From assembly GCA_026874595.1 (NCBI GenBank), contig CM049320.1, positions 5,955,464-6,019,463 of the forward strand: a stretch of DNA of 64,000 nt. The letters run 5' to 3'. The notes beneath the pieces were generated by a model. It saw only the letters and a list, made by a program, of their open reading frames with translations. It was not told the origin of the DNA and searched no databases. Numbering within the stretch: the first letter of the stretch is position 1; each line of letters begins with the position of its first letter. The translations under genes and the position numbers were made by a program. This DNA comes from Sipunculus nudus. Taxonomy: Eukaryota; Annelida; Sipuncula; Golfingiida; Sipunculidae. This document shows, piece by piece, positions 4,828 through 63,149 of this stretch.

Positions 4828-5331
4828 TCATGACATTTCCAGCATAAAAAAACGTCTTGATGATTTAAGATATGTGTAGACGTGATCCAGTATACACTGA
4901 TTGACTATTATACTGAAATCTGATGACCCATGTAACAAGATAGACATTAATTTATCGGTTTGTTGTCTGCCTGGATTTGAAATGAAAGAAGTTATTATAT
5001 CAGGGATTATATTTTGTAATTGCTCTAGTAGCAGTTGTCGTGCGATTCCGTAGTACGGACACATTAAGAAGAAGTGAACAGATGATTCAACCATTCCACA
5101 GTGTGGAGATTGATTAATTTCGGACAGGCCATGTCTATATAGGTGATCTTGGAGGCAGCTATGGCCAAGCCTAAGTCTTGAACTTAAAATATTCTGCTTT
5201 CTTTTTCCATAAATATAATATAATGGGGGGTCTGACGCTAAGCCAAGGTATCTGTTTAGAGAAGATTTAAAACAATTTAATGACGCTGCATTAAAGCTTA
5301 AACAGACATCATGTGAATTCAAATTGTCCAC
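4828..5331 (-). pseudogene. LINE ORF2 C-terminal fragment
   Basis: An uninterrupted 167-codon frame. Residues ~49-110 read RLRLGHSCLQDHLYRHGL, a CG pair, then SSVHFFLMCPYY. This is the arrangement of the C-terminal domain of many animal non-LTR retrotransposons (R-x-R-x-G-H-S/C-x-L-N-x-H-L, a CG pair, then HFF-L-x-CP-x-Y). Upstream endonuclease and RT domains are missing on both sides, so it is a truncated copy. The intact frame suggests it is younger than the LINE remnant at 2055-2570. Host gene content is unlikely. Confidence 0.7.
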
Positions 5332-27857: not shown

Positions 27858-28283
27858 GATAAAAAGCTCGCGAAGAAAGAAAGGAGGACAGCTGATGCTT
27901 TGTTTAGGTGCGCTCCATTTGCCTTTTTGTCATGTACAGTATTTCAACTACGCTGGCAGAGCTATCGCCGTCCGTCACTGTGGTTACATGGGGTTACCTT
28001 CGTCATAATGTGACGCCCTTCGTCTAGATTGACTGGATGATGAATGACTGATTAAAGTCAAACGAATGTGTATAAAAATGGCACACAAACTATAGAGGCG
28101 CGCTGGAGACAACAAACCCTCCATTTCATCTCGTTACCAATATCGAAAATAGGAAATGCATTATTCATTAATGTTCCGATGACTCAACAAGGTCAACAAT
28201 GACTGGTTTTCAATTCGGAACAAAATGGGACAACAACATGATAAAATGTACATTGAAAACCTGTATGTCTGGCTATGCTTGTT

Positions 28284-28287
<4 letters not shown>
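27858..28287. other. intergenic, no gene seen
   Basis: Unique-looking sequence between the trinucleotide array and the (TA)n cluster. No feature supported. Confidence 0.35.
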
Positions 28288-28380
<93 letters not shown>

Positions 28381-28470
28381 AGAGTGTGTGTTTATAGTAT
28401 ACGAACTGCAATTAAAAATGTTCATTACTATTAATAATTTATATGAGTGTGTAAATATATATATATATAT

Positions 28471-28520
<50 letters not shown>

Positions 28521-28563
28521 TTCCACTGTGATGTATTGAACTTATGTATTACATTGATTACAT

Positions 28564-33580: not shown

Positions 33581-33769
33581 TCAAGGCACTCTCCATAATT
33601 CAGGTGGTGGCCTTCCATAGTGACTAGAGGTGGAGGAAACCGGAGAACCCGGAGAAAACCACCGCCTTGGACGGGCAACTACAACCCACTCTCATAGCCA
33701 CGCCGGGGATCGAACCCGGGTCGCCAGCAGAGAGTGTCGAGCCTTTTACTATTCGACTGTCTAGGCCCA
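33581..33769 (-). mobile_element. SINE family A, copy 2 (best preserved)
   Basis: On the minus strand: GGGCCTAGACAGTCGAATAG, then a perfect B box in GACCCGGGTTCGATCCCCGG, CGTGGCTATGAGAGTGGGTT, GGCGGTGGTTTTCTCCGGG, TTCTCCGGTTTCCTCC and the end TATGGAGAGTGCCTTGATTA. This is the cleanest of the four copies and serves as reference for the family. Confidence 0.82.
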
Positions 33770-33832: not shown

Positions 33833-33963
33833 TGGCAATGCGGGCCCATTTCATAGAGATATACAGCAAGAATACACAAAAAAAGTCGGATCATCCCGTA
33901 TGGAAATCGAACCTGTGACCCTCCGATTGCCAGTCGTCTCCTCTACCACTAAGCTAAAAGGGA
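33833..33963 (-). mobile_element. SINE family C (tRNA-headed), copy 1
   Basis: Minus strand: an A-box-like TTAGCTTAGTGGTAGAG, a GGCAATCGGAGGGTCA region, and B-box-like GGTTCGATTTCC, then a body with GATCCGACTTTTT and ATGAAATGGGCCCGC. It shares head and body with 34257-34130 in the same orientation but is more mutated. Confidence 0.75.
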
Positions 33964-34129
33964 TCCTCGACCTCCTCTGTGTATCAGCACAATTTCATAG
34001 GAACCAGCGAAGTGATGTAACTACCGTGACTGGTATTATACGTACATACTACATATGTCGACACAGCGGTGATAAACTGAAGGCCTTTCATGGTGTGCAT
34101 CAAGTATTATATGGAGATGTTTAAATTGG

Positions 34130-34257
34130 CCAGGCTGATCCATTTCAAAGAGATTTAGAACAAAAATAAACGGAAAATCTCGGATCAAACTGTATGGGAA
34201 TCGAACCCATGACCCTCCGATTGCCGGTCGTCTGCTCTACCACTGAGCTAACAGTGG
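34130..34257 (-). mobile_element. SINE family C (tRNA-headed), copy 2
   Basis: Minus strand: TTAGCTCAGTGGTAGAGC (near-consensus A box and D arm) and GGGTTCGATTCCC (perfect B box), with a GGC in anticodon position suggesting an Ala-like origin. The acceptor stem pairs only in part (ACTGT with ACAGT). The sequence after the tRNA part continues into the same body as the copy at 33833-33963. It is therefore a SINE head rather than a working tRNA gene. Confidence 0.8.
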
Positions 34258-35460
34258 AAAACGAAGAAAACCAAAGCACGAGTCTACGTTTCTTTTTGCT
34301 TAAAGTAAAAAGCATAAATCACTAGTTTCATGAATTTAATACCAGTAATATTTCATTGACAAGTAACATAAAACGTTGTTTAAACATTCACACTACACTA
34401 GAGTATCATTTTTTCATATAAAAGCAATATATTTAATAAATTAAAACAAACCTGATGTGTTATATATTTTTTTCCACATATGATATAAAACACTGAATCC
34501 TTTTATATGAATCAGACACCTTCCTTATTACAACGAAGGGAAGATTTCCATTCAATAGAAATTCATTTGAATTTTACACTATCTACATATAAACTTATTA
34601 AGTCACGTTTGTTGAGAGTTAAGTACAGGTGCTCTTTTTATTACATATAGAAGGTTCAATTTGCACTAATACAAACATACATATTAAACCATTCGTTAGA
34701 TAAATACGTAATGTGAAAAGTATAAAATAAAATTATTTAACTATATTTCCACCTGCGCATCAAATAAATTCAAGGTAGGAAAATGTTAACTTCTCATTAG
34801 AGCGCTTGCCTCCGCCAAAACCAACACCACAGCTTGTTCCTCCTCCCTCCTTACCTTCACTGGCTTCAAGGTATAATGCAAATTAATTAATTAAAAACGT
34901 GTAAATAGAGTACCTGATCACTAAGCCGGACCATTGGAATGAATGCGTTCGAATATGATAACACAGGCGCCTGAGTTTATCGGAGATTCAAAAGGACATT
35001 CGCATTAAAGCAAACGTCTTGTTTTAATTAGGCATGTATATATAGTTTTGTCTTAACATTTTGATATGTGCCAGCACAGGGAACTCACTTTGCACTGAAA
35101 TATATTACAATGTTTTTCTACATCAATTTTCTTATCTGTATACATTTCCTTCTCTATTTTTCTCATTGCATAATGCAAAGAAGTGTTTTTTTTTATATTT
35201 TATCATGTTTTATATATACATTGAAGACCACCGCCTTTTTAAGTTTATGAAGTCTGTCTATTCTGATCGAGGGAGATTTCAGTACTGGTCTCCTGGTGCA
35301 GCTTTAGCTGTCTGTATGATTTTCATGAATAAGTAATGAAACAACTTCTTTTAAATTATGTATTATGGCTGTTTTTTTTTTTTTTGTTTTTTTTTGTGTC
35401 GGCTGTTGTGCTATGCAATATACATGAAAAATCATCATCCTTTGCATCCCGGAATTTTAT
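34258..35460. other. intergenic, no gene seen
   Basis: AT-rich. A short GCTTGCCTCCGCC near 34804 recalls a family B head but is too short to call. Confidence 0.4.
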
Positions 35461-35464
35461 AATG

Positions 35465-35527
<63 letters not shown>

Positions 35528-35565
35528 ATCACCTCCATGTACATGCTCTCTCTTATTCTCTCTCT

Positions 35566-35622
<57 letters not shown>

Positions 35623-35668
35623 GCAGTGTCTTACTGTATCTGTCTCTTTGTATGCCCGCTGTCTGTCC

Positions 35669-35742
<74 letters not shown>

Positions 35743-35780
35743 GTCTGTCTGTCTGCCCGTCTGTCTGTCTGTCTGTGTCG
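35461..35780. repeat. Large compound microsatellite (TA)n-(CT)n-(CTGT)n
   Basis: (TA)n at 35466-35528, interrupted (CT)n at about 35545-35623 and again at 35669-35739, then a CTGT/CCGT-type block to about 35778. Long frames on both strands here (up to 171 codons) are repeat artefacts. Confidence 0.95.
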
Positions 35781-36483
35781 ATCTCTCATACTCGCCCATA
35801 TATAAACGTGTTCAGACAGAAGCTCATATGCGGGCTGCAAATTCAAAATAGCAACAATTTGGACGTAATCTATATATTTCAAGAAATCACCTCGACCTTT
35901 TATTCTTTCAAATCCTCAAATTCTCAGGACAGATGATTAATCGTCCACGCTGGTAGTTGATAGCCGGCCTGCTGCCGCAAGCAACTGGTCCTCTGGTCTC
36001 AGGGAACAATTTTATAAGGCAAATAATGGGGTGTCTCAAGTGGATGAGTGAATTGCGTGAATCTTAACTGCTTAGAGAGGTTGTTACGTCCACTTTTATC
36101 ATCCCTGGCTAAGAGAGATGTCATCTGAATAGCCGTATATCGTGCAGGAAGTCACAAGAGACTCTCCGTAAAAGCAGGAGTATGATCTTTTGAAGTGACA
36201 GTGAATAATTCCCTACTTATTATTTTCTTTAAATTAAGTTTGAATACGACCAAAAGCAGATAACATGGTTCTTAAAAATCTACGGTCTCCAGGGTGGTCA
36301 CAATTAATTTATACATCTTTTGATGATTAATGCACCTGGGTTGTTGCGATTACCGACTGCTCTGGCAAGGAAACCTTTAACAGGTACATCTTCACAGACT
36401 GTATCAACGTACAATTTATATTGCAGAGGAACCATCGCTACAATACAAGGAATTTTATCAAGTAAGGCAAATTATATTTATTT

Positions 36484-47505: not shown

Positions 47506-47741
47506 CAGGGGCGGATACGTCATTTGAGAATAAGGGGCGCAGAGGGAGGAGGGTAATGGAGGGTGTTAACCCACTCATTTTGTGTTTGAAAAGTTAGGCC
47601 GCAGTGGCAAAAATTGGGGCAAATTAAATGTATATGATTCCAATTCTTGTTCTGTGTTTCGATATAGAGCTCTTATTATTCTATTCTTCGGAATTTATTA
47701 TTTAAATTAGGGGGGGGCTTGTCCTCCTAAATCCGCCCCTA
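47506..47741. mobile_element. hAT-like MITE
   Basis: Terminal CAGGGGCGGAT (47506-47516) faces ATCCGCCCCTA (47731-47741), giving a 10-bp inverted repeat AGGGGCGGAT. Termini of the form CAGGGGCGGA are, from memory, typical of hAT-type MITEs in animals. The 8-bp flanks do not match clearly, so a target duplication is not demonstrated. No transposase is present. Confidence 0.55.
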
Positions 47742-49320: not shown

Positions 49321-50362
49321 TATAACTCACTGTGGTGTCCGCAGTCAAATAGGTAACAAAACAAAACATTTGATAATTATATCCAACGTCCGATGGGCTT
49401 CCCTCGGTTAAACCAGTTGTATAATATCTAAATAAAGCGTCCATGACTGATAAGTAAGGGCAATGCTTATAATGGTCATGTATAAAATTGTTTGAGAAAT
49501 ATTTTCTGCTGGAAACAAAGCCTCTGGCCCTGTAGGACTGTCTGCAACGAGGTTTTGCAAATGAAGGACTTAATTACATCATAAGCTATAATGTTAAACA
49601 AGTACCGTGATTAACAAAGAGAGGGTAAAGGTTAACCTCGTGTTTCATAACCAATCTGTTAAAATTGTCTTTGAACGAAGAGAAGACTTTGTCACAGGAT
49701 ATTTGTCAAGTAAGAAATAGAATCGCTTTGGGAAACCGCGATGGCGCGAACGACATTTATGATTGTATATTAAATTTGGTCTCCCCAGAAAACAGAACAA
49801 CAATATAATAAAGAGAGAAAATTTATTTGACAGACGCCGTTTATTTCATTAATCATGATGGCCTAAGCGAATATGATTCATTTTTATGTATTCAACACGA
49901 ATTTTGATTGTATCCGAAAAATTATTCAGTTTTTACTTGCCCTTGCGGTATATATTCATACACTTATTTCTCATAATAGAAAGTAAGTAAACATTGATTT
50001 AATTTCTGTTTCACTGGTCGTAATCGTTGGCGTTTTATGAAGTCAGACACGATTGTTGCACATCATTCATCCTACAAAGTGAGGCAAATTGGAAAAGCGG
50101 ACCCGCCATATTGACATAATTTGTTATGTAAAATCGGAATTTATTATCTTATTCATAGTGAAAATTGAAAAAGGATTGACTAAACGAAAGGCTCCCCTTT
50201 TATACTGGGGCACAAAAAATAGTTAACAGAAAAAATTGCGTGTAAATTAAATTGCAACCTTCAAAATCCAAATGAAGAGATAATATACCGCCTGTCAGCA
50301 AGGGTGCGTAGTTTATATAACTATGTATATATATAGACTTTAAGTTAGACTTTATCATATTT

Positions 50363-50371
50363 CTCTCTCTG

Positions 50372-50453
<82 letters not shown>
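50363..50453. repeat. (CT)n(AT)n microsatellite, left flank of the TRIM
   Basis: CT tract to about 50408, then an AT tract to 50453, where the TRIM-like element begins. The AT tract resumes on the other side of the element at 50888-50923. Confidence 0.95.
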
Positions 50454-50457
<4 letters not shown>

Positions 50458-50611
50458 ACGGGGTGACATAAAAGCCGACCGAACTGTCTCGCCTGTGAAG
50501 CTTGCTTTTCTAGCGAAGCGGTTGGAACGCCGGACACGTGCGCCACCTACATGGGTTCAACTCCCGGACCTGCCCGATGTTTTCCCCTGAAAAAAATTTG
50601 TCTTTGTAACA
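50454..50611 (+). repeat. TRIM left LTR
   Basis: 158 bp, roughly 85-90% identical to the right repeat by eye. Carries an A-box-like TAGCGAAGCGG (50511-50521) and a B-box-like GGTTCAACTCC (50554-50564), 43 bases apart, as in a tRNA-type Pol III promoter. Confidence 0.75.
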
Positions 50612-50731
50612 AAAATGGGGGCTCTTCCTACGTGACGGTAATCTTTATGGCCCTGGAAATAAGCTCACCAAAGTGTGACACCTGGGATAATTAGTCTTGT
50701 TCTGATAGCAGAACGCTCTTAAGAGGGGGTG

Positions 50732-50883
50732 TGTTACGGGGTGACATAAAAGCGGACCGAACTGTCTCGCTAGTGAAGCTTGCTTTTCTACCTAAGCGGT
50801 TGGAACGCCGGACATGTGCGCCACCGACAAGGGTTCGAATCCCGGATCGGCCCAGTATTTTCCCCCGAGCAATTTGTCTTTGT

Positions 50884-50887
<4 letters not shown>
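50732..50887 (+). repeat. TRIM right LTR
   Basis: 156 bp. The A-box region is TACCTAAGCGG (50789-50799) and the B box is a perfect GGTTCGAATCC (50832-50842), at the same 43-base spacing as in the left LTR. The AAGCGGTTGGAACGC word resembles the D arm of Ser/Leu-type tRNAs. Confidence 0.75.
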
Positions 50888-50928
<41 letters not shown>

Positions 50929-51028
50929 TGGAGCCTCTCGAGTCAAAAGTCTGTGAAGTTCACGATTTCCTGGAACAGTTCGTCTCACAGTTGTGTGATT
51001 CGCATGCACCTTGTGCATTCTGACAGCC

Positions 51029-51420
51029 GGGGCGTCAATTCAGGGGGGTTGGGGTTTATACTTTTTAGCAAGGAGGATAGTCAATGAAATCATCCCCCTG
51101 ATATTCAGATAGTAATATGTATGTATTGGAAATGAAATATATTAATAATTAGAATCATAGACTTTGGTTCCATATCTTAGTTTACTATGAAATTTTGTAT
51201 ATCTAATCTAGTTTAGAATCATCATATACTGAATATATAATTCCTTATTTTTTTAAATCTGATACTTAATTGTCACAAAGACAATAAAAGGTATGTGTGT
51301 GTGTGTGTGTGTGTGAGGGTGTGTGTGTGTGTAAAAAAAAAAATGTCCCTACTTTGATTATCCTCCCATTCCTGCGAGTCATCCCCCACCCATGAAGATA
51401 AATTGACGTCATTGCATAGT
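51029..51420 (+). repeat. Family D repeat with internal (GT)n, copy 3
   Basis: GGGGCGTCAATTCAGGGGGG, TGGAAATGAAATATATTAAT, TAGACTTTGGTTCCATATCT, a (GT)n tract (51295-51331), TGTCCCTACTTTGATTATCC, TCCCATTCCTGCGAGTCATC, AAGATAAATTGACGTCATT. It aligns with 12880-13306, where the internal microsatellite is (TA)n instead. Confidence 0.8.

Positions 51421-59402: not shown

Positions 59403-63149
<3,747 letters not shown>

Follow-up and report, generated by a model that had tools for sequence, protein, structure and literature searches.

A probable Helenus-type TRIM, old and non-coding, with tRNA-type promoter boxes in both LTRs and a (TA)n microsatellite as insertion site

The 434-bp sequence extending from position 50454 to 50887 of the 64-kb stretch of DNA analysed here (the window) is very probably a single, old, non-coding copy of a Helenus-type miniature LTR retrotransposon (TRIM; TRIMp3 class) that lies inside a (TA)n microsatellite. 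Helenus is the name given to TRIMs with tRNA-derived sequence in the LTR (Kojima 2024, PMC10886601), and the assignment follows from the presence, in both LTRs of the element, of the A and B boxes of tRNA genes, which constitute the hallmark of Helenus. Novelty is thus improbable, and an aged representative of an already described type is the likeliest reading.

The element comprises a left LTR of 158 bp (50454-50611), an interior of 120 bp (50612-50731) and a right LTR of 156 bp (50732-50887), all on the plus strand. Alignment of the two LTRs reveals 138 identical positions in 156 ungapped columns, plus two gap columns, and the differences are equally divided between transitions and transversions (9 of each; K2P 0.126). 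Both LTRs start with TGTTAC and end with GTAACA, which form perfect inverted termini. The repeat pair is real, far beyond chance, and both the direct repeats, which the first-pass annotation had put at ~157 bp, and the ends described there were recovered. With two direct terminal repeats, a short interior and a total length below 1000 bp, the element has the dimensions of a TRIM. The initial reading as a miniature LTR retrotransposon is supported, since all structural hallmarks that a single copy can display are present, except an unambiguous target duplication.

The interior carries the two priming signals of an LTR element. A primer-binding site of the tRNA-Pro type, TGGGGGCTCTTCC, is located at 50616-50633 on the plus strand and is separated from the left LTR by AAAA, which agrees with the four-base distance reported previously. 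Compared with TGGGGGCTCGTCCGGGAT, the proline primer site, this site is identical at 12 of the first 13 positions and at 13 of the full 18. The delta-F primer in PMC1802090 contains TGGGGGCTCGTCCGGGAT, and a figure legend of that paper designates the first primer region as the proline tRNA binding site. When the interior was shuffled and offsets 0-6 were considered, a 12/13 match was reached in 0 of 20,000 shuffles, and a match of 10 in 19 of them. On both strands of the window, the site in the element is the sole place where the proline 13-mer is found with at most one mismatch, and a single further place, at 47712, matches with two mismatches. The 3' end of the interior consists of the polypurine tract AAGAGGGGG (50721-50729, plus strand) followed by TG; the tract is therefore present, as had been claimed, but does not strictly abut the right LTR, from which it is separated by these two bases. 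No stop-to-stop frame of the element exceeds 75 residues, and a Pfam search with the longest one (up to E 1) gave a single match, to a zinc finger (E 0.015, 15.4 bits versus a cut-off of 27). The element is thus effectively non-coding, in line with the earlier statement that its 434 bp encode nothing.

The most informative part of the element, overlooked in the first-pass annotation, is the pair of tRNA-type promoter boxes carried by each LTR. These were located with the patterns TRGCNNAGYGG and GGTTCRANTCC, the consensus of the A and B boxes of tRNA-gene promoters. In the left LTR, the A box (50511-50521) and the B box (50554-50564) have starts 43 nt apart and match these patterns without mismatches. 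In the right LTR, the A box (50789-50799) presents one mismatch and the B box (50832-50842) none. All four boxes are on the plus strand and, in LTR coordinates, the A box is located at 58 and the B box at 101. The best total obtained in 3,000 Markov simulations per LTR was 3 mismatches (left) and 2 mismatches (right) versus 0 and 1 observed, and the observed quality was attained in 0/3,000 simulations for each LTR, these values referring to patterns that were composed only after the LTRs had been inspected. A search of both strands of the whole window for A/B pairs with up to 3 mismatches returned six rows, three in the LTRs and three in two tRNA-Ala-like copies at ~34 kb, which share the 43-nt spacing between the boxes; the corresponding background was 5 pairs in total over 20 simulated 64-kb strands. 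The tRNA cloverleaf itself has been lost in the LTRs, where at most a T-arm hairpin remains. No match to the tRNA family RF00005 was identified by cmscan (up to E 10) in 50495-50585 and 50750-50865, which gave short T-arm-like and chance matches only. A functional tRNA in the LTR was rejected, the one tRNA that ARAGORN finds in the window being located elsewhere.

The boxes could, in principle, be a non-functional remnant left by a tRNA-type SINE after its insertion into the LTR of an ordinary TRIM transcribed by polymerase II (TRIMp2). The loss of the cloverleaf agrees with this explanation, as do the lack of such boxes in other TRIMs and the fact that their promoter function is only predicted. 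Nevertheless, near-consensus boxes at tRNA spacing are retained in both LTRs, even though these have diverged at 18 of their 156 aligned positions, which suggests that the boxes were intact in the parent element, and Kojima (PMC10886601) describes the boxes as conserved among Helenus LTRs. An inert relic is therefore considered quite unlikely, and a Helenus-type TRIM remains the preferred assignment.

Comparison with the published description of Helenus (PMC10886601) reveals extensive similarities. Like Helenus, the element contains an A/B-box unit in each LTR, a primer site of the tRNA 3'-end type and a polypurine tract, and is non-coding, while its length of 434 bp falls inside the Helenus range of 311-1263 bp. 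The primer sites of bivalve Helenus correspond to tRNA-Lys, His, Ile, Pro, Glu or Ser, such that the tRNA-Pro site is shared with some bivalve families. The first-pass annotation had regarded the element as belonging to a mollusc-like family that it did not recognise; families of this kind are in fact published, with 51 in bivalves distributed over five orders, which the element resembles in its described features. The mollusc label itself is plausible. Among the literature matches listed, Kojima 2024 (PMC10886601) is the one study that reports tRNA sequence in TRIM LTRs. Overall, the element fits Helenus on the features compared, except for the length of the target duplication.

The insertion site consists of a pure (TA)n run of 46 bp on the left (50408-50453) and a pure (AT)n run of 37 bp on the right (50888-50924). 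When duplication lengths of 1-8 bp were tested in this one copy within a microsatellite, the flanks agreed at 1, 3, 5 and 7 and disagreed at 2, 4, 6 and 8. Helenus reportedly makes target duplications of 4 bp in animals, and those in fungi and the plant measure 5 bp (PMC10886601). In contrast with animal Helenus, the flanks of the present element thus allow odd lengths only, for example 3 or 5. As slippage by two bases preserves the phase of the repeat, the duplication would be 5 (or 3) bp here, unless the phase was shifted by a single-base change. Duplication length is, however, not what defines the Helenus group. Since LTRs are expected to be identical at insertion, the K2P of the pair points to an old copy, unless the two LTRs were joined by recombination between elements. 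The 18 differences are spread alike inside and outside the box region, a descriptive observation from the alignment that fits, as expected, neutral decay after insertion. At 35333-35936 and 28172-28531, false open frames on both strands arise from extended microsatellites of the (TA)n and (TC)n types, which resemble the one that flanks the element.

Among other known systems, the plant TRIM Cassandra similarly carries, within its LTRs, a polymerase III promoter derived from a small RNA gene. This contrasts with the present element in that Cassandra is found in plants and its promoter is 5S rRNA sequence, while the boxes described here are of the tRNA type. The biv-TRIM of bivalves (PMC6934838) is likewise a TRIM without coding capacity, and the sections of that paper that describe it report repeats of 202-218 bp, an interior of 77-80 bp, a polypurine tract that is mostly GGGGAGA, no canonical primer site and an interior segment, TGATCCCAAAGGAC, in all species but one. 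In contrast, the present element displays repeats of 156-158 bp, an interior of 120 bp, the tract AAGAGGGGG and a tRNA-Pro site, and TGATCCCAAAGGAC is absent from its interior. Judged from this part of the published description, identity with biv-TRIM was rejected on the basis of repeat length, interior length and the missing TGATCCCAAAGGAC.

SINEs are built of a head and a tail, and their movement depends on LINEs. The tRNA-derived SINEs (SINE2) resemble the element in being short and non-coding with an internal A/B-box promoter, but differ from it in that the element is equipped with LTRs as well as a primer site and polypurine tract. The same features bear on the proposal that no LTR element exists at all and that two tRNA-derived SINEs inserted near each other in the same orientation. 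An A and a B box in each repeat are what this proposal predicts, and the window does hold another tandem pair of tRNA-like repeats, at ~34 kb. However, both repeats of the element are bounded by identical perfect inverted termini, the primer site immediately follows the first repeat and the purine run immediately precedes the second, an arrangement unexpected of two SINEs, and this very improbable explanation was rejected. The probability of a retrozyme, a small non-autonomous LTR element with a hammerhead ribozyme in its LTRs, is close to nil: the overall layout is similar, and retrozymes are likewise named as a group with LTRs that have no sequence in common with canonical LTR elements (PMC10886601), but the 14 Rfam matches obtained for 50300-51100 (up to E 1) include no hammerhead, and none is found at the gathering level in the window, where the sole Rfam match is a tRNA.

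The Helenus-type element is the only copy detected in the window. A BLAST search of the 64 kb with the whole element (E 0.01) returned only the element itself and the cross-matches between its LTRs, and nhmmer searches with each LTR gave, among the matches listed, nothing else better than E 0.88. Two LTR patterns had 0 matches each in viral contigs. The 15-base start of the LTR was found at 59 prokaryote loci in genome contigs; these appear to be chance matches, as the longest BLAST match among those listed extends over only 22 bases. Four short pieces of the LTR are printed in none of the paper main texts searched. A helper was sought by comparing 100 stop-to-stop frames with Pfam at E 0.01, namely 99 of 185 frames (at least 58 residues, complexity-filtered) plus the frame at 4831-5331; the remaining 86 comprise the 85 shortest and one in the element, which was scanned separately against Pfam. 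Among these 100 frames no Gypsy helper was detected, and the sole family recognised was triosephosphate isomerase.

Exons of triosephosphate isomerase, a protein named by PDB matches, extend over ~59403-63095 on the minus strand and indicate that the DNA derives from a cellular genome. The first exons of this gene are apparently located past the exon at 63.1 kb, unless they escaped recognition, and the element is located ~8.5 kb past its stop codon. The 167-residue frame at 4831-5331 (minus strand) looks, by eye, like the end of a LINE reverse-transcriptase protein and has no Pfam match at E 0.01. A tandem repeat is observed at 1414-1833 on the plus strand, where one frame reads repeated RAHELLI.

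The tRNA-Ala-like unit mentioned above occurs on the minus strand as two direct copies (33833-33960 and 34127-34254), which are 80% alike and 294 nt apart. Both copies have A and B boxes 43 nt apart, and the upper one is identified as tRNA-Ala(GGC) by ARAGORN, with an Rfam tRNA match of 42 bits. Past the tRNA portion, the copies remain similar over a further ~50 nt, as members of a SINE family would; neither terminal repeats nor a primer site were observed in them. In addition, the minus strand at ~33600-33740 presents a tRNA-like B box, GGGTTCGATCCCC, followed by TGGTTTTCTCCGGGTTCTCCGGTTTCCTCC, and has the appearance of a SINE with a tRNA head and a conserved body. A literature search with pieces of this body returned no SINE paper among the matches listed.

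RNA polymerase III starts roughly 12-20 nt upstream of the A box. A scheme for the transcription and mobility of the element can be drawn from established LTR-retrotransposon biology and the Cassandra precedent, in which host polymerase III would start at this distance before the A box of the left LTR (~50491-50499). Runs of four T are located at positions 53 and 127 of both LTRs, and none is found in the interior. The polymerase would have to read through the run that follows the left B box (50580-50583, plus strand), would then cross the T4-free interior and would stop in the right LTR. A stop at the run just before the right A box (50784-50787, plus strand; LTR 53-56) would give an R of ~11-19 nt, similar to that of Cassandra, for which 18 is reported, while a stop at the run after the right B box (50858-50861, plus strand; LTR 127-130) would alternatively give an R of ~85-93 nt. 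A Gypsy element would provide Gag and Pol in trans, tRNA-Pro would prime the minus strand and the polypurine tract the plus strand, and the Gypsy integrase would insert the element DNA.

The distribution of T4 runs does not add support to polymerase III transcription through any depletion, as 4 runs are observed in the element versus an average of 1.3 or 2.4, depending on which of two kinds of shuffle is used, and a T4-free interior is expected in 66% of shuffles. A clean polymerase III model is disfavoured by the left LTR, where the run at 127 requires read-through either way and the run at 53 would lie a few bases past the start. Read-through nevertheless has a precedent: PMC7215508, in the passages that deal with transcription, describes read-through of intervening LTRs in Cassandra transcripts of plants. 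According to the introduction of PMC10886601, Cassandra RNA starts in the left LTR, ends in the right one and carries an 18-bp duplication at its ends. For Helenus, polymerase III activity is called not validated by Kojima 2024 (PMC10886601). A scan for bacterial promoters and terminators found none and is irrelevant to an animal.

Taken to its furthest, the element could represent a Helenus lineage that makes 5-bp duplications against the published animal rule, possibly in a host outside the bivalve orders known to carry Helenus, with an RNA ended by the T4 run before the A box and an R of ~11-19 nt, which would make it the tRNA-promoter counterpart of the Cassandra transcript layout. This combination is considered unlikely. 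Captured polymerase III promoters of the tRNA type have been described in TRIMs only recently (PMC10886601). The present copy, with its recognisable boxes, primer site and T4 runs, leads to concrete predictions of where the transcript would start and end; it is otherwise an ordinary example that adds to the known catalogue.
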